Below, one piece after another: positions 296 to 20,860 of a DNA stretch of 64,000 nucleotides. Position 1 is the stretch's first letter, and every line of letters begins with the position of its first letter. Source of the stretch: Bacillus sp. 103mf (GTDB taxonomy: Bacteria > Bacillota > Bacilli > Bacillales > Bacillaceae_G); NCBI RefSeq assembly GCF_900116295.1, contig NZ_FPAF01000016.1, positions 22,150 through 86,149 of the forward strand, written 5' to 3'. The notes below the pieces were generated by a model, which was not told the origin of the DNA, made no database searches, and saw nothing but the letters and a program-made list of their open reading frames with translations. A program made the position numbers and the translations under genes.

Positions 296-369
296 GTTGC
301 TATAATTTTTATTCGTAACATAACAAGTAACTTCAGAATGTTTTTGATTTGAAGGGGATTTTATGTCAA

Positions 370-408
370 ATAATTTATACATGACTAAATTATTGGTGTA
401 TAAATTAT
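370..408. promoter_or_regulatory. 12-bp inverted repeat, candidate activator site for the collagenase promoter
   Basis: ATAATTTATACA (370-381) and TGTATAAATTAT (397-408) are perfect inverted arms separated by 15 bases. They lie about 45-85 bp upstream of the sigma-54 type promoter at 453-469, a position where an enhancer-binding protein could sit. The assignment is inference from symmetry and position. Confidence 0.5.
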
Positions 409-452
409 TAGATTGTTCTAATAAAAATGCATTTTTTCTGTGGGATTTAATA

Positions 453-470
453 TTGGCACGCTTCTTGCTT
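453..470 (+). promoter_or_regulatory. sigma-54 (SigL) type -24/-12 promoter
   Basis: TTGGCACG, four bases, then TTGCTT gives the invariant GG and GC doublets with exactly ten bases between them, which is the canonical sigma-54 arrangement. The collagenase gene is the only gene downstream, with start codons 130-180 bp away. Confidence 0.75.
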
Positions 471-650
471 ATCTGAAATATGGAGGGGGGAATTTAGCAG
501 TAGCTGTAATAAGAGAATACTTATTAAAAATATTGGCCACTGATTTTACAGGTATCAATGAAGATGACGTTGTCTAGTAAAGGTATATGAAAGGGAGTTT
601 TGGTTAAAAAATTAAGAATTTTGACTATTTTAAAAAAAGGAGAAAATAGC

Positions 651-3287
651 ATGGTGAAATACTCAAAATTTTATAAACTGATGCTTGGTGTTGGGCTTGT
701 TACTATATCATGTAATGGCATGCAAATTCAAGCAGAGGCAAAAGAGAAAAATACGAAGAATGTATTACAAATGGAGCCGGTAGGATTAAAGAAATCCGTT
801 GATGAGTTAGCGCACTCTTCGAACGTACAAGAAAGTCCATCTTTTACAAAACGGTTAAAGTTAGCAGATTTATCGCAGCGTCCGCCGGCACCAAAAGAGG
901 ATGCTAAACAGCTGGCTGAAGAAAAAAAATATTCGATGGCTGAATTAAATCAATTAAGCAACAAACAATTAGCCGATCTTCTTGTTACGATTCAATGGTA
1001 TCAAATTCCGGAATTATTTCAGTTTAATAGTGATAGCCTGAAGTTCTATCAAGATGATAGCCGGATGCAAGCGCTTATTGATAAACTAGCAGAACAAGGC
1101 CAAGCGTATACGCAGGACGATTCAAAAGGAATTGAGACATTAGTAGAAGTTATACGTTCGGGATTTTATTTAGGTTTTTATCATCAAGAATTAAGTAAAT
1201 TAAGTGAACGCAGCTATCATGATAAATGTTTACCAGCTTTAAAAACAATTGCGAAGAACCCGAATTTTAAACTTGGTACAACAGAACAAAATAAAGTAAT
1301 TTCGTCTTATGGAATGTTGATTGGAGGTGCGTCAGCTGATGTTGAAGTTATTCAATATGCAGGTGAAATCTTAAGACAATATAATGATAATCTTGCAACT
1401 TTTATTGAAGACTACACAAAAGGCAATGCTGTATATAATTTGATGAAAGAAATTGATTATGATGTTCAGTCGTATATGTATACTACGGGCAAAGAACCAA
1501 AAGATACGATGTGGTATAGGAATATTGATAGCTTTATTAATGAAATAAGTCGTTTTGCACTAATTGGTACGGTAACAGACAAAAACGGATGGTTAATTAA
1601 TAACGGAATTTACTATGCTAGCCGATTTGGTAAGCTTCATAGTACACAAGCAAAAGGACAGCAAGTTGCAACAGAAGCGATGTGGATTTATCCATATTTA
1701 GGACAGCAATATTTTGTTGCGGTAGAACAAATTGTTACAAATTACGGTGGAGTAGATGCGAACGGAAAAACAGTAAATTTAGATCAAATTCGAGAAGATG
1801 GTAAGAAGAAATATTTGCCTAAAACCTATACGTATGATGACGGGGCAATCGTCTTTAAAGCGGGAGATAAAGTGACTGAGGATAAAATTAAACGTTTATA
1901 CTGGGCGGCAAAAGAAGTACGCGCTCAATTTTATCGTACAGTTGGTAGCGATAAGGCGCTCGAGGGCGGACATGCTGATGATGTGTTAACAATGGTTATT
2001 TACAATAGTCCCGACGAATATCAATTTAACCGTCAATTGTATGGCTATGAAACGAATAATGGTGGTATTTACATTGAAGGAATCGGAACGTTCTTCACAT
2101 ATGAACGTACACCGCAGCAAAGTGTTTTTAGTTTGGAGGAATTGTTCCGTCATGAATTTACACACTATTTACAGGGAAGATATGAAGTTCCAGGGTTATG
2201 GGGACAAGGAGACATGTATCAAGATGAACGCTTGACTTGGTTTGAAGAAGGCAATGCGGAGTTCTTTGCAGGCTCAACGCGATTAGATAGCGTTGTACCA
2301 CGAAAAAGTATGATTAACAGATTATCTAATGATCCAGCTAAACGATACACAGCGGAGCAAACATTATATGCAAAATACGGAACGTGGGATTTTTATAACT
2401 ATTCGTTTGCATTGCAATCTTATATGTATAATAACCGCTCTGATATGTTCGATAAAGTGCATGATTTAATTCGTGCAAATGATGTCCCAGGTTACGATGC
2501 GTACCGCTCTGCATTAAGTAAGGATAATAAATTAAATGAAGACTACCAATCTTATATGCAAATGCTGATTGATAATCGGGATAAGTATACAATTCCGCAA
2601 GTATCAGATGATTATTTAGCAGAGCATAAACCGAAAGCGTTTTCTGAAGTTACAGCGGATATTACCAATGAAGCGAAGCTAACAAATGTGAAGGTAACAA
2701 AGAATAAATCACAATTCTTTAATACATTTACACTACAAGGAACGTATACAGGAAGTGCGTCAAAAGGAGAAACTGAGGACTGGAAGGCGATGAATCAAGC
2801 AACGAATGAGATGTTAAAACATCTTTCCGAAAAAGAGTGGAGCGGATATAAAACTTTAACTGCTTATTTTGTGAATTACCGTGTCAATGCGGCTGGACAA
2901 TTTGAATATGATGTTGTGTTTAGCGGAGTGAATACTGAAGAAGATAATAGCGTAGAAAAAGAACCGAATGATTCATTTAATACAGCTAATCCACTATCTC
3001 TGAACACATTATTACGAGGTAGCCTAAATGATCAAGATCAAGTTGACCGGTTTGTTATTGATGTGAAGACAGCAAAAGATTTACAGATTACCGTTACGAA
3101 TGAACAAAACCTTGGAATGAATTGGGTATTATATTCTGAATCAGACCTGAATAACTACGCCGCTTATGCAACAAAACGCGACGGAAATAAATTACTTGGA
3201 AATTATTATGCGAACCCAGGAAAATATTACTTGAGTGTATATAAATATAGCGGTGGAACGGGGAATTATACAGTAGAGGTAAAATAG
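651..3287 (+). CDS. colA: secreted microbial collagenase (peptidase family M9)
   Basis: A zinc metalloprotease that degrades collagen outside the cell. From ATG 651 the protein has 878 residues. It begins with a signal peptide (KYSKFYK, hydrophobic core, cleavage near QAEA). A long N-terminal activator region precedes the gluzincin catalytic site H501-E-F-T-H505, with the third ligand E533 in EEGNAE, at the usual spacing for family M9. After residue about 690 come a PKD-like segment and a C-terminal PPC-type domain starting at EKEPNDSF, thought to bind collagen. ATG 651 has a good ribosome-binding site (AAAGGAG). An in-frame TTG at 600 also has AAGGGAG but adds 17 residues before the signal peptide. 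A sigma-54 type promoter lies upstream and a strong terminator follows. Confidence 0.93.
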   Translation: MVKYSKFYKLMLGVGLVTISCNGMQIQAEAKEKNTKNVLQMEPVGLKKSVDELAHSSNVQESPSFTKRLKLADLSQRPPAPKEDAKQLAEEKKYSMAELNQLSNKQLADLLVTIQWYQIPELFQFNSDSLKFYQDDSRMQALIDKLAEQGQAYTQDDSKGIETLVEVIRSGFYLGFYHQELSKLSERSYHDKCLPALKTIAKNPNFKLGTTEQNKVISSYGMLIGGASADVEVIQYAGEILRQYNDNLATFIEDYTKGNAVYNLMKEIDYDVQSYMYTTGKEPKDTMWYRNIDSFINEISRFALIGTVTDKNGWLINNGIYYASRFGKLHSTQAKGQQVATEAMWIYPYLGQQYFVAVEQIVTNYGGVDANGKTVNLDQIREDGKKKYLPKTYTYDDGAIVFKAGDKVTEDKIKRLYWAAKEVRAQFYRTVGSDKALEGGHADDVLTMVIYNSPDEYQFNRQLYGYETNNGGIYIEGIGTFFTYERTPQQSVFSLEELFRHEFTHYLQGRYEVPGLWGQGDMYQDERLTWFEEGNAEFFAGSTRLDSVVPRKSMINRLSNDPAKRYTAEQTLYAKYGTWDFYNYSFALQSYMYNNRSDMFDKVHDLIRANDVPGYDAYRSALSKDNKLNEDYQSYMQMLIDNRDKYTIPQVSDDYLAEHKPKAFSEVTADITNEAKLTNVKVTKNKSQFFNTFTLQGTYTGSASKGETEDWKAMNQATNEMLKHLSEKEWSGYKTLTAYFVNYRVNAAGQFEYDVVFSGVNTEEDNSVEKEPNDSFNTANPLSLNTLLRGSLNDQDQVDRFVIDVKTAKDLQITVTNEQNLGMNWVLYSESDLNNYAAYATKRDGNKLLGNYYANPGKYYLSVYKYSGGTGNYTVEVK

Positions 3288-6393: not shown

Positions 6394-6939
6394 GTGGAGG
6401 TGAAAGCTTCATTGTTAAATATATATGAACAAGATTCAGTTTCAAATATACAGTTTCAAGATGTATTTAAACAATATTATGCTCACGTTGTGAGACAAAT
6501 TATGCGGATTGTGCGAGATCAAGCAATTGCTGAGGATTTAGCGCAAGAAGTATTTTTGCAATTATATCATACAGAATGGAAACAGATTGAAAGTTTATCA
6601 GCATGGCTTGCAAAAGCATCCATTTATGCCGCATATAACTATTTGCGATCTGAAAAAAGGCATCAAGCAAGAATCGAAAAAGAAGCAAATTATAAGCAGT
6701 CAATTAGTAGTCCGTCATCGGAAGAACAATGTATTCAAAAAGAAGAAATTACTCGTGTACAAAGTACATTAAAAGAGATGGATGAGCGTGAACGAACCCT
6801 CTTATTAATGAAGTTTTCAGGGTTTCAATACAAAGAAATCGCAGAGGCTACTCAGATGGAAGTATCCTCGGTTGGAACACTGCTAGCACGAGCGAAAGCG
6901 AAATTCCGGAAAATGTATAGAGGGATAAAGGAGGAGTGA
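6394..6939 (+). CDS. RNA polymerase ECF-type sigma factor
   Basis: 181 residues. Sigma region 2 is seen in ALAEDLAQEVFLQ-like residues 46-58 (AIAEDLAQEVF), and region 4 helix-turn-helix in the last 60 residues (MDERERTLLLMKFSGF, YKEIAEATQMEVSSVGTLL). It starts at GTG 6394 behind AAGGAGG. The anti-sigma gene follows after three bases and an ABC exporter after that, so the factor probably controls its own operon in response to envelope stress. ECF factors of the SigM/SigW/SigX type look alike, and I do not assign a name. Confidence 0.88.
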   Translation: MEVKASLLNIYEQDSVSNIQFQDVFKQYYAHVVRQIMRIVRDQAIAEDLAQEVFLQLYHTEWKQIESLSAWLAKASIYAAYNYLRSEKRHQARIEKEANYKQSISSPSSEEQCIQKEEITRVQSTLKEMDERERTLLLMKFSGFQYKEIAEATQMEVSSVGTLLARAKAKFRKMYRGIKEE

Positions 6940-6942
6940 CAA

Positions 6943-8118
6943 ATGAAATGCCAAGATATTGGATTTATTCAGGCGTATTTAGATGGAGAGTTAAACCGCG
7001 ATGAAAGAAAGCAATATATTCAGCATCTTGACCAATGTAAAGCATGTCAAAAGACGTTAGAAGAAGTGAGCAAGCTTAATCAATGGGTAGAAGTTGTAGT
7101 GGATGATGAATTCGCAAACGCTGGTCAAGAAGTTGATATCGATGTTGACCAAGCTTGGAAAACCTTTGAACAAAATATACAAAATCATAATACGAAAGAA
7201 ACAAACAGTAAAGAAAGTAAAAAGAAGGGAAGATGGCATAATATGAAGAAATCATCTAAACGTTGGATTACCGGAGCAGCAGCAGCGGCAATTGTGTGTG
7301 TGTCTTTAACAGTTCCAGAAGTACGGGCAGGAGCAAGTAATTTGTTATCGATTTTTCGAGTAAAGGATGTGCAATTAGTTCAACTTACCGAGTCGGACTT
7401 ACATGAAATTGAAGGATGGATCTCTCATATGGAAGAAGGAGAGAAGTCCATTAAAGGAATTGGGAAAATAGGAATCAAAGATAACGGAAGTAAAAAAGAT
7501 GCTCATTTTCAGTCGGAACAGCAAGCAAGAGAAGCTGGATATGCTGTTCCAAAAGTACCAAATGGATACCATGTAACGAGTGTAGATACGAACCCGTCAT
7601 TTATTATGCAATTTGAACTCGATACAGAAAAAGCTAATAAGTTGTTGAAACAACTACAGAGCAGTACGCAGTTTGAAAGTGCTTTGAATGGCAAGCAGTT
7701 TTCAATCACAGTTCCAGAATCAGTACGTACCCAAATAGATGTTGAGGGCAATCGAACATCAAGTGGTTTTTCTTATAATGTGATTGATGCACCAAAAATT
7801 TCTGTTCCAGAAGGTGTAGATGTTGCGAAATTACAAAAAACAGTTTTAGAGCTTCCGATTATTCCTGGGAATGTAAAAACACAGCTTGCAGGTATTCAAG
7901 ATTGGACACATACATTGCCGATTCCTTATGTAGCAAAAGATGCAAAAGCATCAGAGACAAAGGTTCAAGGAGTGAAGGCGGTTTTATATAGTACGGATTA
8001 TGAAAATGTGCTTGTTTGGGAAAAAGAAGGGAAATTGCATATGATCGAGCAACATAAAGAGCAGGGGAAAGATACGAATGCAAACGATCTTATTAAACTT
8101 GCAAATGAACTAAAATAA
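6943..8118 (+). CDS. transmembrane anti-sigma factor with zinc-finger domain
   Basis: 391 residues. The N-terminal 40 residues hold the zf-HC2 anti-sigma motif (YIQHLDQCKACQKTL, H-x3-C-x2-C). A cytoplasmic linker rich in Asn, Lys and Ser follows. One transmembrane helix lies near residues 109-125 (WITGAAAAAIVCVSLTV). The remaining 260 residues form an extracytoplasmic domain of the DUF4367 kind (PKVPNGYHVTSV, VLVWEKEGKLHMI). The predicted role is to hold the upstream sigma factor at the membrane until an external signal arrives. The ribosome-binding site AAAGGAGGAG overlaps the end of the sigma gene, implying coupled translation. Confidence 0.85.
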   Translation: MKCQDIGFIQAYLDGELNRDERKQYIQHLDQCKACQKTLEEVSKLNQWVEVVVDDEFANAGQEVDIDVDQAWKTFEQNIQNHNTKETNSKESKKKGRWHNMKKSSKRWITGAAAAAIVCVSLTVPEVRAGASNLLSIFRVKDVQLVQLTESDLHEIEGWISHMEEGEKSIKGIGKIGIKDNGSKKDAHFQSEQQAREAGYAVPKVPNGYHVTSVDTNPSFIMQFELDTEKANKLLKQLQSSTQFESALNGKQFSITVPESVRTQIDVEGNRTSSGFSYNVIDAPKISVPEGVDVAKLQKTVLELPIIPGNVKTQLAGIQDWTHTLPIPYVAKDAKASETKVQGVKAVLYSTDYENVLVWEKEGKLHMIEQHKEQGKDTNANDLIKLANELK

Positions 8119-8183
8119 TGATTGAACAAGAGCGGCTCCGCAAAAAGGGGCGGCTCTGTTCCTGTATAGGGCGGAGGTAAAAC

Positions 8184-9149
8184 ATGAACGAAGAATGGAT
8201 TATTCAAACAAAGAACTTAACAAAACAATATAACGGAAAAGGCGGTATCCGCAATATTTCATTAGAGGTGCCGCGCGGTACTGTATTCGGATTTATAGGT
8301 CCTAACGGTGCAGGAAAAAGTACGTTTGTGCGAACGATGCTTGGCTTACTTCATCCGGATTCTGGAACAGCGCAAATGCTAGGGCAACCGATTGGGACAA
8401 TTGAATCAAAGCGGCGCATTGGTTATTTACCTGAACTGTTTCGCTATCCTGATTGGCTGACCGGATGGCAGTTACTTGAAACGCATGCAAAATTGTGCAA
8501 TATTCCTTTTCGGGAGCGGAGGGCAAAAATGAATGAGGTTATTGAAAAAGTTGGCCTAAAGGGAAGGGAAAAGGAAAAAATTCGCGGTTATTCAAAAGGA
8601 ATGCAGCAGCGTATCGGACTTGCTTGTGCCCTGCTTTCTGATCCGGAATTGATTTTTTTAGATGAGCCAACATCCGCGCTTGATCCGATCGGACGGAAAG
8701 AAGTGCGTCATTTAATGGAAGAGCTTCGGAATCAAGGGAAAACAGTATTTTTAAACAGTCATCTATTAAATGAAATTGAACATCTATGTGATCACGTGGC
8801 GATTATTAATAAGGGAGAGTTAATTGTCCAAGGAGATTGGCGCTCATTGATGATGATTCAAACGGAAGTTGAAGTAACACTTGGTGAAAAGAGTGAATTG
8901 TTTTTTAAACAACTACCTCCATTTATTAAAAATGTAAGGAAGATAGAAGAGCAGCAAAATCGTAAGCGCTGGATTATAACGCTGCAACAAGAAGATGACA
9001 TTCCTAGATTGTTAGAAGCATTTGTATCACTACATATTCCTGTGTATCAGTTAAATCCGGTTCATCCGCATTTGGAAGATGTGTTTATGTATTGGGTAAA
9101 TAAGAAAGAGGGGACGCAGCATGTGGACAATCGCCAAGTTATCATTTAA
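8184..9149 (+). CDS. ABC transporter ATP-binding protein
   Basis: 321 residues. Walker A is GPNGAGKST near residue 39, the signature is YSKGMQQRI, and Walker B is LIFLDEPTSALDP followed by the H-loop NSHLL. The C-terminal 100 residues are an accessory domain typical of NatA/CcmA-like exporters. It sits 65 bp after the anti-sigma gene, overlaps the permease gene by 29 bases and reads as part of the ECF-sigma operon. The substrate is unknown; drug, peptide or lipid export would be typical for such a regulator. Confidence 0.9.
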   Translation: MNEEWIIQTKNLTKQYNGKGGIRNISLEVPRGTVFGFIGPNGAGKSTFVRTMLGLLHPDSGTAQMLGQPIGTIESKRRIGYLPELFRYPDWLTGWQLLETHAKLCNIPFRERRAKMNEVIEKVGLKGREKEKIRGYSKGMQQRIGLACALLSDPELIFLDEPTSALDPIGRKEVRHLMEELRNQGKTVFLNSHLLNEIEHLCDHVAIINKGELIVQGDWRSLMMIQTEVEVTLGEKSELFFKQLPPFIKNVRKIEEQQNRKRWIITLQQEDDIPRLLEAFVSLHIPVYQLNPVHPHLEDVFMYWVNKKEGTQHVDNRQVII

Positions 9150-9993
9150 AGAAATTTTGTTAAAGCGTATTTTTACCATTACGTTATGTATGACCTTTGC
9201 CTTTTTAATATTTTATGGAGTGGCCATTCACTATGCTGTCAGTGAAATCCTTCCAGGAGAATCTAGTGGTATTTCGGCAGCACAAGATTTTATGAGCAAA
9301 AGTTTCTTTTCTACACAACTTCTAGGGGTTGGGTTATACTTTTCTTCGTTTATTACTGCACTGTTAGCTATTTTAAGTAGTGTTGGAAGTATTGCTAATG
9401 AAATTGAAAGTCATCAAATTGATACATGGTTAACGAGACCGATTTCACGATTTTCCTTTTTAATGGGGAAATGGATCGGCTTATGCTTGTTACTGATTGC
9501 GTACGCGGCCTTCCTGTTTATGAGTATCGTGATTATTCATCAAACAATGGGAGGTAGTACGTTCCATTTAGATTTCACAGCCGCGCAGATTATAAAAGCA
9601 TTGGCTCTTTTCTTGCTACAGCCCGTTATTTTAATTAGCATCGCGATATTACTAAGCACGCGTATGGCGACATTAAATGCTGGCATTGTGTTAATTATTT
9701 TATACGGAACTGGATTTATTGGCGGATTTGTTGAACAAATCGGTACATTGGCACATAAAGCAGCACTTGTAAACATGGGCATAATTGCCAGCCTTTTATT
9801 CCCAATCGATACAATGTATCGTAAAATGACAATCTATTTATTTGATTCAGCAGACAATCCTTTATCAATAGCTTCACAAGGAGTATTTGGGAGTGTTTCA
9901 ACACCGAGTAACATGATGGTTGTTTATGCTGTTTTATATGTGTTAGCAGCTATTTTTATAGCGATGCGTACATTTAAATCACGTGATTTATAG
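9121..9993 (+). CDS. ABC transporter permease (ABC-2 type)
   Basis: 290 residues with six hydrophobic segments, at roughly 20-38, 75-95, 115-140, 160-180, 185-205 and 265-285. The motif IESHQIDTWLTRPISR after the second segment is characteristic of ABC-2 permeases. It is the membrane partner of the overlapping ATPase gene. It ends the operon; no strong terminator is visible, only a short TCTCCCGCT / AGCGTGAGA stem about 75 bp downstream. Confidence 0.88.
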   Translation: MWTIAKLSFKEILLKRIFTITLCMTFAFLIFYGVAIHYAVSEILPGESSGISAAQDFMSKSFFSTQLLGVGLYFSSFITALLAILSSVGSIANEIESHQIDTWLTRPISRFSFLMGKWIGLCLLLIAYAAFLFMSIVIIHQTMGGSTFHLDFTAAQIIKALALFLLQPVILISIAILLSTRMATLNAGIVLIILYGTGFIGGFVEQIGTLAHKAALVNMGIIASLLFPIDTMYRKMTIYLFDSADNPLSIASQGVFGSVSTPSNMMVVYAVLYVLAAIFIAMRTFKSRDL

Positions 9994-12042: not shown

Positions 12043-12099
12043 TTTGACGGAACATGTAACTTGTTTTAGAATATATTTTAAATAACTCATATGTAATAA

Positions 12100-12333
12100 C
12101 AGTGAGAAGGAGTAGTAGTAATAGAAGCTGGTTTAGAGAGTTGACGGTCGGTGCAAGTCAATCCACGTTTCGTTATGAACTCGCCTTTGAGTTGCAGTTG
12201 TGAAACAAAGTAGCAATTGCCGTTCATCCACGTTACGGATCTAAGCGAATGTAATTATTACATTAATTTAGGGTGGTACCGCGGGAATCTATAACCTCTC
12301 GTCCCTTTTCTGGGATGAGGGGTTTTTTGTATT
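12100..12333 (+). promoter_or_regulatory. T-box leader (tRNA-Leu sensing) of leuS
   Basis: The conserved T-box AGGGTGGTACCGCG is at 12269-12282. Upstream lies the AG-box region (GAGAGTTGACGGTCGGTGCAAGTC). The probable specifier codon is CTC (12180-12182), which fits leucine. The terminator stem CCTCTCGTCCC / GGGATGAGGGG with a T-run is at 12293-12331. Uncharged leucyl-tRNA would favour the antiterminator and switch leuS on. Confidence 0.95.
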
Positions 12334-18525: not shown

Positions 18526-20607
18526 TTACTCATCGAAATCTGTCATACGTTTTTGAAATACTTCCTTTATATAACGACCAGCATGTTGTGGCCTTGCTTG
18601 AACCCCGCGCTGATCTATTTTAGATAGTGGCATTCGTACGAAAGAGTCTTTTGCCAATTGTTTGCGAAATGGATAAACAAACCCATACGGCTTTCGAAGA
18701 GATGATAATCGAAAAAGCCGTGTTAATAGAAAGATAAATCCTAAAGAAATTCCTAATAATCCCCATAACTCAGCAAGTATGAGAAAGGGAAAGCGAAGTA
18801 AACGAACGGCATTGCCCATTTGATAAATCGGTGTAATAAACGATGCAAGCGCAGATAAAGCGACAATGATTAGCAAAATATTACTTGTTAATCCTGCTTG
18901 GACAGACGCTTGTCCAATTACGATACCGCCTACAATGCCGAGCGTTTGCCCGACTTTCACTGGTAATCGTGCTCCTGCTTCCCGCAGAAGATCAATAGCT
19001 AACTCTAGGAAAATGGCCTCTATTATAGGCGGAAATGGTACTTGTGCCCGCGATAAAATTAATGTCTCCAGCAAATCACTTGGAATTAATTCATAGTGAT
19101 AACTAAGCACAGCTACATATAGGGGCGTTGCACAAATGGAAAACGTAACTGCGACAAAACGTAATAAACGGGAAAAAGTTGCATAAAACCATGACACGCT
19201 GTAATCCTCTGGAGAGATGAAGAAATCCAGTAGAGATACAGGTGATAACAAAACATTTGGTGAGCCATCAACAAATGTAGCAATTTTTCCATCAATGAGC
19301 CCGTTGCTGACACGATCAGCCCGTTCTGTATTAATAAATGTTGGAAAAATAGATGTATTACCCATGAGCTGGGGAATATAATAGCTATCATTAATTTGTT
19401 CATACTTAATTGTGTTTAAGATATCTTCTAAATATGTAACATTTTCTTTTTCTACTACATTGCTTAAATACATGATAACGACTTTCGTTTTGGATAATTC
19501 TCCAACTAATAGTTCTTTTGTTTTTAATTCAAGAACTGGCAACCGTTTTCGAACAAGATTAATGTTTGTGTCGATATCCTCTACGAATCCTTCTTGCGGT
19601 CCGATAACTGTGGATTCGTTTAATGGTATAGTTGGTAATCTATATTTTTCAATTGCAATGTTTGCAAGTAGACATTCCGTATCATGTTCGTGTAGTTGAA
19701 TGATAGCATGTCCCTTTAAAACCATTTCTTCAATTTTTTTTACGTCACTTGTAATAATGAGTCCGCTGATTGGAATCATTGCTTTTACTTCTTCTAATGT
19801 TGGTGCAGTATGATGCAATAAAGCAGGCATTAAATAATTCTGTAATCTCATACCATCCATTGACGTACGAAAATATGAAATCCAATACGGTTTAGTAGGG
19901 TCTTCAGAAGTATGATAGTGAACAAAGTCGCTTGATTCTCGTAATTTTTGGATCAATTCTTGTAGTGAATGAGCGGTTTCGTGCTCTGGCTTACTAAAAT
20001 TGAAAATGTTGTTTTCACTTTGCTTTGATTGTTGGTTTGCTTGCTGCTTGTTGTTTTGAGTTTGTTGCTGGTTTGCTTGCTGTTTGTTGTTTTGATCCTG
20101 CTGTTGGTTTGCTTGCTGTTTATTGTTTTGAGTCTGTTGTTGGTTTGCTTGCTGCTTGTTGTTTTGAGTTTGTTGCTGGTTTGCTTGCTGTTTGTTGTTT
20201 TGATCCTGCTGTTGGTTTGTCTGCTGTTTGCTCGATTGAGCTTGTTGTTGGTTTGTCTGCTGTTTGCTTGCTTGAGCTTGCTGCTGATTTGTCTGTTGTT
20301 TATTGGCTTGAGCTTGCTGTTGATTTGTCTGTTGTTTGTTCGCTTGAGCTTGCTGTTGATTTGTCTGCTGTTTGCTTGCTTGAGCTTGCTGCTGATTTGT
20401 CTGCTGTTTGCTCGCTTGAGCTTGCTGTTGATTGTTGGATTGAGCTTGCTGTTGATTTGCCTGTTGTTTGTCCGATTGTACTTGTTGTTTCGTTTGCGCT
20501 ACTTGATTGCTTTTGGTTTGTTCATTTTGCTTCTTCTTCGTATCTGTATTGTTCTTTTCTACTTGCTTATGATCGTTCTTCTTTTTGCGAAACCATTTGA
20601 AAAACAT
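18526..20607 (-). CDS. gerIA: spore germination protein GerIA with Gln-rich repeat domain
   Basis: 693 residues. The C-terminal 470 residues are the GerA family core: hydrophilic domain, then membrane helices (PLYVAVLSYHYELIPSDLL, ARLPVKVGQTLGIVGGIVIG). The N terminus starts MFFKWFRKKK, followed by about 180 hydrophilic residues including roughly a dozen 12-residue repeats of the type QAQASKQQTNQQ or QTQNNKQQANQQ. B. cereus GerIA is reported to carry such a Gln-rich region, which is why I assign gerI (inosine response) and not another ger operon. Start ATG 20607 is favoured over the long upstream extension to 20817. Confidence 0.85.
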   Translation of the reverse strand: MFFKWFRKKKNDHKQVEKNNTDTKKKQNEQTKSNQVAQTKQQVQSDKQQANQQQAQSNNQQQAQASKQQTNQQQAQASKQQTNQQQAQANKQQTNQQQAQANKQQTNQQQAQASKQQTNQQQAQSSKQQTNQQQDQNNKQQANQQQTQNNKQQANQQQTQNNKQQANQQQDQNNKQQANQQQTQNNKQQANQQSKQSENNIFNFSKPEHETAHSLQELIQKLRESSDFVHYHTSEDPTKPYWISYFRTSMDGMRLQNYLMPALLHHTAPTLEEVKAMIPISGLIITSDVKKIEEMVLKGHAIIQLHEHDTECLLANIAIEKYRLPTIPLNESTVIGPQEGFVEDIDTNINLVRKRLPVLELKTKELLVGELSKTKVVIMYLSNVVEKENVTYLEDILNTIKYEQINDSYYIPQLMGNTSIFPTFINTERADRVSNGLIDGKIATFVDGSPNVLLSPVSLLDFFISPEDYSVSWFYATFSRLLRFVAVTFSICATPLYVAVLSYHYELIPSDLLETLILSRAQVPFPPIIEAIFLELAIDLLREAGARLPVKVGQTLGIVGGIVIGQASVQAGLTSNILLIIVALSALASFITPIYQMGNAVRLLRFPFLILAELWGLLGISLGFIFLLTRLFRLSSLRKPYGFVYPFRKQLAKDSFVRMPLSKIDQRGVQARPQHAGRYIKEVFQKRMTDFDE
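20030..20460 (-). repeat. 36-bp tandem repeats inside gerIA
   Basis: About a dozen units of 36 bp encode two repeat types, QAQ(A/S)(S/N)KQQTNQQ toward the N terminus and Q(T/D)QNNKQQANQQ toward the C terminus. The two types are arranged in blocks, which suggests block-wise expansion. The repeats also create spurious long hydrophobic frames on the plus strand. Confidence 0.85.
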
Positions 20608-20860
20608 ATGTATTCCCTCTTTACCCAAATAAGATAACTTTAGTCTGTGGGAATTTTTATATATTATGCATATATTTGTGTGTGAAAAAGTGAAATGTGA
20701 ATAGCGAGGGAAGTAATTTTGGATACATAGTGATATGAGTTTTAGAGGAAATAATAATTGAACAAATAAAGGAAATGTGTTTTCTCTTTTTGAATAGTCT
20801 TCTGTAGCGCACTTCATTTGTTTTATGTAGAAACGAAGTGTGAATTAAGGAGGCGAAAAG

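Follow-up and report, generated by a model that had tools for sequence, protein, structure and literature searches.

Collagenases of the Bacillus cereus group are discussed as virulence factors under PlcR control, and a secreted collagenase gene at the start of a 64,000-nucleotide stretch of Bacillus sp. 103mf (contig NZ_FPAF01000016.1, positions 22,150–86,149; hereafter the window) raises the question of which signal such an enzyme answers to. The gene content of the window suggests that its source belongs to this group. An earlier note on this DNA had placed the gene behind a sigma-54 promoter with an upstream palindrome. The promoter and operator of the gene were found to be of the same kind as those of hydroxyproline (Hyp) genes in related bacteria, and this likeness suggests that the collagenase may be made when a breakdown product of collagen is sensed. 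Hydroxyproline is an amino acid typical of collagen. Loci and genomes of the comparative set are denoted by L and G numbers, and published papers, several of them available as partial texts, by their PMC numbers.

The collagenase gene and its probable sigma-54 promoter

The gene opens the window, with 650 nt of upstream DNA included. The elements on which the argument rests are listed below.

363..382, no strand: left (strong) 20-bp operator ATGTCAAATAATTTATACAT, containing palindrome arm 370–381
396..415, no strand: right (weaker, half-site) operator GTGTATAAATTATTAGATTG, containing palindrome arm 397–408
453..470, plus strand: sigma-54 (-24/-12) promoter TTGGCACGCTTCTTGCTT, 22.2 of 23.1 bits
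480, plus strand: predicted transcription start, 12 nt past the C of the -12 GC, placed from sigma-54 promoter geometry
482..490, plus strand: Shine-Dalgarno (SD)-like sequence GGAGGGGGG, resembling a stabilizing SD (STAB-SD) element, at +3 of the predicted mRNA 5' end; no suitably spaced start codon by eye
636..642, plus strand: ribosome-binding site AAAGGAG, read from the sequence (SD pairing of the gene, -9.3 kcal/mol)
651..3287, plus strand: secreted M9 collagenase of 878 residues, from ATG at 651 to stop at 3287 (Pfam M9, M9_N, ColG_sub, PPC)

The reading as a collagenase in the earlier note is confirmed, with family M9 as the assignment, by a Pfam Peptidase_M9 match of 225 bits (cut-off 26) and by HEFTH in the translation, which agrees with HExxH. 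The solved relatives in the Protein Data Bank are clostridial ColH and ColG. The note also used the name colA. Identity with colA (BC3161) of B. cereus ATCC 14579 was rejected because protein length and C-terminus differ: the window protein has 878 residues and ends in NYTVEVK, and BC3161 has 960 and ends in EYSLLVK according to a primer printed in the available part of PMC5010206. PlcR control is reported for BC3161 and for colC (BC0556) of the same strain in the available text of PMC2464732.

Table 2 of PMC4428206 lists 16 B. thuringiensis sites, 12 of which were used to build a sigma-54 weight matrix. The GG and GC of TTGGCACGCTTCTTGCTT lie at 455–456 and 467–468, with the spacing that the earlier note had recognized, and the second-best site on both strands of the 64 kb reaches 14.6 bits. 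Maxima in 20 first-order Markov resamples (one strand) ranged from 11.4 to 16.6 bits, 5.6 bits or more below the window promoter. Sites of this kind recur upstream of other collagenases (see below), and the window promoter is, judged by its sequence, very probably sigma-54-dependent.

Other regulators were also considered. The upstream region has no PlcR box (TATGNAN4TNCATA) within one mismatch, as the earlier note had seen; of the three that the window contains, the closest, at 1681, is inside the gene. PlcR control was rejected on this ground. CodY control was rejected because CodY-like matches are at chance level (2 against 1.76 expected), and sigma-70-like sites are likewise about as many as shuffled sequence would give (4 against 3.8). 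One CodY-like box, AATTTTCGGAAAATT (one mismatch, 164–178), is located by eye within a possible small open reading frame (ORF) of 38 residues (131–247).

An operator shared with hydroxyproline-catabolic promoters

A perfect 12-bp inverted repeat (370–381 / 397–408) had been proposed as a possible activator site. The repeat is present on reading the sequence, and an inverted-repeat search returned a longer, imperfect pair (366–388 / 390–412, 83% complementary). Each arm comprises the inner half-site of one 20-bp operator together with spacer. This refines the palindrome: the functional unit would be the 20-bp operator, present twice, with the 12-bp repeat as its inner part. The operators are 33 bp apart and start 90 and 57 nt ahead of the -24 element.

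When the matrix is built without the window sites, the left operator takes first place among 63,981 positions in the window (17.2 bits; next, 12.6) and the right operator fifth (9.7 bits), and no other pair in the window is as good at spacings of 19–40 bp. The right operator ranks third with a matrix from Hyp promoters only. The left operator comes first with that matrix and also with matrices from a Brevibacillus-like clade (with all its sites or with those of collagenases alone), from G025 and G069, and from Priestia megaterium and B. badius. Control contigs (80 LeuS loci, 1.59 Mb in total) yielded one site that reaches 17.1 bits. A palindromic expectation-maximization motif search of eight Hyp-locus promoters, from which collagenase and window sequences were absent, gave the consensus GTGTATAAAATTTTATACAC. 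With the resulting motifs of width 18 and 20, the window sites at 364 and 363 are ranked first (17.9 and 17.3 bits; next, 11.2 and 12.3), and at width 22 the operator is outside the top five. The window was among the sequences inspected when the half-site form was first recognized, and the motif width and promoter pieces were chosen with knowledge of earlier scans.

The link to hydroxyproline came from sigma-54 sites in other genomes. The pattern TTGGCAYN5TTGC occurs 15 times in G069, 17 in G025, 35 in G653 and 32 in G598, against 1, 1, 5 and 5 for the reversed pattern. The 300 nt upstream of 67 TTGGCAY-type sites in G069, G025 and G653 were scored with a collagenase-operator matrix (window included). 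The top three of the 65 non-collagenase sites are promoters of dihydrodipicolinate synthase (DHDPS)-family genes in G069 (18.2 bits) and G025 (16.1) and of a flavin adenine dinucleotide (FAD) oxidoreductase gene in G653 (15.1). An unrelated promoter (L207, 11.1 bits) is fourth, and three OppA-like promoters are fifth to seventh (10.0, 9.4 and 9.4). The top three loci contain genes for an FAD oxidoreductase, a proline-racemase-family epimerase, a DHDPS-family protein and an aldehyde dehydrogenase, to which G025 adds 2Fe-2S and FAD subunits; the DHDPS gene of this cluster is seen in G598 and is obscured by an overlapping frame in G653. The set matches that described for trans-4-hydroxyproline catabolism in the available part of PMC4113996. 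The G653 cluster also includes an M24 prolidase gene and an OppA gene whose two operators have the same 33-bp spacing as those of the window.

Two plasmids extend this observation. The two best operator matches in a 17.6-kb piece of the P. megaterium plasmid pBMV_2 (collagenase matrix including the window) precede two sigma-54 Hyp promoters: CTGTCAAAAAAATTATACAT scores 18.1 bits, with 17 of 20 letters identical to the window operator, and GTGTATAAATATCTTTACAC, 289 nt upstream, scores 15.8 bits. The same matrix finds two operators (16.5 and 13.8 bits) ahead of the Hyp promoter of B. badius pPM400. The sequence side of the proposed activator site is thus supported, in that the predicted operator is common to hydroxyproline-catabolic promoters.

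Divergent to the Hyp-locus oxidoreductase gene is a gene for an enhancer-binding protein with PAS, AAA+ and Fis helix-turn-helix domains and a GAFSGA motif, here called HypR; its pBMV_2 relative is 58% identical. The operator is located between HypR and the divergent Hyp genes in seven loci (L227, L228, L231, L237, L265, L266 and L286). Operators at HypR loci score 13.4–19.7 bits in L237, L239, L240, L242 and L286–L290, and just 8.2 in L243. This scoring by weight matrices replaced a 12-match count, which missed L239 and L240 and gave at least 10 of 12 at only L256 among other PrdR-like loci. Every one of the 13 genomes with a collagenase site, among them G581 with its weak one, also has HypR (at least 490 bits), as do 6 of the 21 genomes that lack such a site (counted by genome, Fisher p = 4e-5). 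Neither a Walker-A nor a GAF[S/T]GA motif pointed to an activator gene beside the collagenases themselves, either in the window or in 12 other surroundings (L192–L196, L229, L230 and L296–L300). The best NCBIfam family of HypR is PrdR (NF041552); the scores, 539 and 525 bits, are below the cut-off of 795, which makes HypR a relative and not a member.

Other PrdR-like activators are encoded in L244–L246, L251, L252, L255 and L256, mostly divergent to a putative proline dehydrogenase gene, and they are candidate activators of proline catabolism. Sigma-54 sites are present in L244–L246 and L256.

Other collagenase loci and gene order

The comparative set consists of GTDB-220 contigs and does not include the genome of the window gene itself. 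When whole genomes were searched with the collagenase of the window, matches turned up in 5 of 397 genomes for the order and 17 of 398 for the class (overlapping sets); further, also overlapping, searches gave 14 of 250 in the G599 family, 1 of 19 and 2 of 2 in two more families, and 1 of 10 in the G581 family. A search of 398 genomes of the phylum for PF01752 gave matches in two, one of them new (L114) and lacking a -24/-12 site. None of six exact peptide patterns from the window collagenase was matched in genome or viral contigs, and plasmid records held only distant M9 relatives (18 records), with no DNA match to the window gene.

In total, 46 distinct collagenase loci were scanned (L081–L112 and L267–L280; L113, a duplicate of L081, and L114 were left out). 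A strong -24/-12 site (at least 16.1 bits) precedes 14 of them: L085, L086, L087 (G069, G025), L092–L100 (nine genomes, presumably Brevibacillus), and L279 and L280 (G1347). The remaining 32 score at most 13.6, a value reached by L081 within another ORF. An upstream operator of at least 15.1 bits is present in 12 of the 14 strong-promoter loci, versus at most 12.4 bits in the other 32 (the matrix includes five collagenase operators). L089 of G581 has a GTGGCAT-type site of 12.0 bits and an operator of 12.4 bits. Collagenases preceded by a sigma-54 promoter thus occur in four lineages, or five if the weaker G581 site is counted.

In the clade L092–L100, the upstream alignment shows the -24/-12 element and both operators conserved in all nine loci. 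The clade 20-mers, of the TGTATA-N6-TATACA type, are GTGTCTAATATTTCATACAT and TTGTAAAAAAATGTATACAT or close variants, which begin 79 and 47 nt upstream of the -24 element. L086 and L087 carry two copies of ATGTATATATTTTTATACAT, the second 24 nt further along. Two operators ahead of the -24 element are therefore found in the window, L092–L100, L086, L087 and the G653 OppA promoter.

Gene order relates this clade to the window through a block downstream of the collagenase gene.

6394..9993, plus strand: extracytoplasmic function (ECF) sigma factor, anti-sigma factor, ATP-binding cassette (ABC) ATPase and ABC permease genes, a marker of conserved neighbourhood with no proposed role in the switch

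In G598, G573 and G653, all three genomes checked, the sigma-54 collagenase is followed by this block with order and orientation unchanged (39–60% identity; window against G598, 54, 39, 60 and 51%). Because gene order matches in these sigma-54 collagenase genomes, the apparent positional counterpart of the window collagenase is one that carries the promoter and operator. The block was not found in the pieces around the collagenases of G276, G599, G1181, G1347, G581, G025 and G069, most of which extend at least 6 kb downstream; G025 reaches 3.6 kb beyond its second gene and G069 1.1 kb beyond the L195 gene. Gene order in G276, G599 and G1181 is unlike that of the window. Elsewhere in the window, an ordinary T-box leader lies upstream of leuS (12093–12309, 150.5 bits), and a minus-strand frame of 763 residues (18526–20817) has Gln- and Asn-rich repeats at 20025–20637.

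The collagenase leaders share a further feature. GGAGGGGGG pairs with the anti-SD sequence at -13.9 kcal/mol, which none of 40 shuffles equalled. Fourteen leaders were compared (the window, L085–L087, L089 and L092–L100; L279 and L280 were left out), and 11 of them have an SD-like sequence apart from the SD of the gene itself, with 0–2 of 40 shuffles as good. The 11 (the window, L085, L086, L087, L089, L094 and L096–L100) comprise every leader of more than 90 nt; the three short ones (L092, L093 and L095) have no additional SD-like sequence. No ORF conserved by eye follows it, and L085 has a seven-codon frame. The sequence resembles the STAB-SD of cry3A described in the available part of PMC4113751. 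In G1347, the adjacent collagenase genes L279 and L280, both with strong sigma-54 sites, have strikingly similar leaders of several hundred nt, consistent with either a duplication or a structured leader.

The proposed switch, its rivals and known systems

Taken together, the sequence comparisons indicate that the collagenase is probably under a SigL promoter whose activator is most likely an orthologue of HypR, or SoxR as it is called in B. thuringiensis HD73, with hydroxyproline or a relative as the signal. The genome of this organism would encode both HypR and SigL. Hydroxyproline, or a relative such as sarcosine, would activate HypR, which would bind the operators at 363–382 and 396–415, contact the SigL polymerase at the -24/-12 element and open the promoter through ATP hydrolysis. 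Transcription from 453–470 would then yield a secreted collagenase that releases Hyp-rich peptides, and uptake and catabolism genes with the same operator would consume them, closing a positive feedback loop. The earlier idea of an amino-acid or nitrogen signal acting through SigL is supported in its amino-acid part by the shared Hyp operator; the signal is likely hydroxyproline or a related imino acid and not general nitrogen.

A number of observations count against this proposal. The comparative set seems to lack B. cereus-group genomes, the best LeuS match being 84% and none of the six collagenase peptides being found. The collagenases closest in sequence (G276, 61%; the G599 family, 59–64%; against about 50% for the clade) are mostly without the site, and five genomes with such collagenases have HypR yet no site. 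For orthologous upstream regions, whose lack of the element the earlier note would have held against its proposal, the outcome is consequently mixed: all 9 loci of the gene-order clade have the element, which is absent from 13 of 14 G599-family genomes and from G276. The operator scores of L279 and L280 are just 7.1 and 6.3 bits despite their promoters, and both loci have two TTTATACA half-sites 32 bp apart. The association with HypR is weak when counted by lineage in a coarse grouping (p about 0.06). The Hyp enzymes (proline racemase/4-hydroxyproline epimerase, alpha-ketoglutaric semialdehyde dehydrogenase and dapA) fall below NCBIfam curated cut-offs, for which reason the Hyp locus was named from its gene set and the literature. 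The SoxR footprint of HD73, AAAATATTTTTTACAAATAAAAATATTTT, scores -0.0 bits with the operator matrix. It may show part of a site, because the P. megaterium locus contains a stretch of it, only the initial 15 letters, in the weak promoter-proximal operator; SoxR was restored as a candidate because the Hyp-locus promoters of other species show the operator. Finally, the 16 SigL promoters of PMC4428206 include no collagenase and its main text does not contain the word "collagen"; among 21 promoters tested there, according to the available part, two were unaffected by sigL, two were up in the mutant and one was silent, none of which can be assigned to the window gene.

The operator also seems not to be wholly exclusive to HypR: other PrdR-like activator loci have GTGTACA-type sites at 12–14 bits, and our confidence in the HypR proposal was lowered slightly because of them. 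The sites score 14.0 bits in L244–L246 (GTGTACATGATTTTGAACAA), 12.0 in L251, L252 and L291–L293 (GTGTACAGAAATTGAAACAA in L252, L291 and L292), 12.8 in L294, 11.0 in L295 and 12.4 (TGTCTA type) in L256. The activator of a genuine sigma-54 promoter could then be another PrdR-type protein, such as PrdR of HD73 or the activator of its prolidase or proline racemase gene, with proline as the signal. The relationship of HypR to PrdR and the mismatched SoxR footprint fit this alternative, as do the HD73 prolidase and proline racemase genes, which are SigL-dependent with an activator given as unknown in the available part of PMC4428206. We nevertheless regard it as rather unlikely, given that the operator sits between HypR and divergent Hyp genes in the seven loci named above, that the PrdR-like locus L255 has nothing above 4.5 bits, and that both window half-sites are by eye of the HypR type (TATACA/TGTATA, as in GTGTATA) and not GTGTACA, although the OppA operator of the clade is GTGTACA.

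A second alternative accepts the -24/-12 element and palindrome as real but minor, the main drive coming from a sigma-A promoter under PlcR, CodY or stationary-phase control. Two other B. cereus collagenases are PlcR-controlled according to the available parts of PMC2464732 and PMC5010206, and the CodY-like box at 164–178 could be read in its favour. Against it stand the missing PlcR box, the chance-level counts of CodY-like and sigma-70-like sites, and the retention of operator and promoter together in all nine clade loci, and we hold it to be a poor prospect. That an AT-rich inverted repeat merely happens to lie beside a lucky -24/-12 match is scarcely credible. The AT-rich DNA upstream of the gene does contain many inverted repeats of 10–25 nt (8 pairs in 700 nt), but the promoter exceeds the best of the resamples by the margin given above, the operator is first in the window under several window-free matrices, and both recur, in the same order and orientation, ahead of other collagenases.

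A wider reading is mildly favoured, namely a collagen-utilisation regulon in several lineages of Bacilli, including the B. cereus group, in which one hydroxyproline-sensing enhancer-binding protein and sigma-54 would control collagenase, oligopeptide uptake and Hyp catabolism. Attack on the matrix would be triggered by a collagen-specific amino acid, independently of PlcR quorum sensing. Matrix breakdown would then be at least partly a nutritional programme in which host or carcass collagen supplies its own inducer, SigL would gain a role in tissue colonisation, and the HD73 sox locus would be recast as a hydroxyproline locus. What is predicted is specific, namely a single operator, activator and inducer. 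B. cereus ATCC 14579 is reported to grow slowly on trans-4-hydroxyproline with its Hyp genes induced (PMC4113996, available part), and loss of rpoN in this strain to lower several virulence genes and plcR (PMC4524646, available part); the main text of the latter does not contain "collagen". Among the matches listed in the open-licence literature, none links a collagenase to SigL, and collagenase regulation in the available part of PMC5010206 is by PlcR.

The closest published system is the SigL- and SoxR-dependent sox locus of HD73, which, in the available part of PMC4941409, likewise has sigma-54 promoters, a PAS-AAA+ activator adjoining the operon and an upstream inverted-repeat activator site. 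Although described for sarcosine use, it carries the trans-4-hydroxyproline catabolism gene set seen in L227, L231 and L265 (SoxB-type oxidase, proline-racemase family, DHDPS family and aldehyde dehydrogenase). It differs from the regulon proposed here in that sarcosine is what the available text reports and tests, with hydroxyproline unmentioned and no collagenase described there, and in that the printed footprint mismatches the operator motif. PrdR is reported to activate HD73_1070 in the available part of PMC4428206.

BC3161 and BC0556 are, like the window gene, M9 collagenases of the same group; they are listed in the PlcR regulon, whereas the window gene has no upstream PlcR box. PrdR, the activator of proline reductase genes in Clostridioides, is the nearest curated family of HypR, and related operator-like sites lie beside PrdR-like paralogues; unlike it, HypR is under the family cut-off and has hydroxyproline catabolism as its gene context. 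In the levanase operon of B. subtilis, LevR and SigL control a secreted depolymerase whose breakdown product is sensed by the activator, and a comparable arrangement is proposed here. LevR is a phosphotransferase system (PTS)-domain activator and levanase acts on a sugar polymer, whereas a PAS-type activator and collagen would be involved in the window. The mode of action would therefore be like that of known SigL catabolic operons, and what would be new, within the literature searched, is a collagenase in such a regulon.
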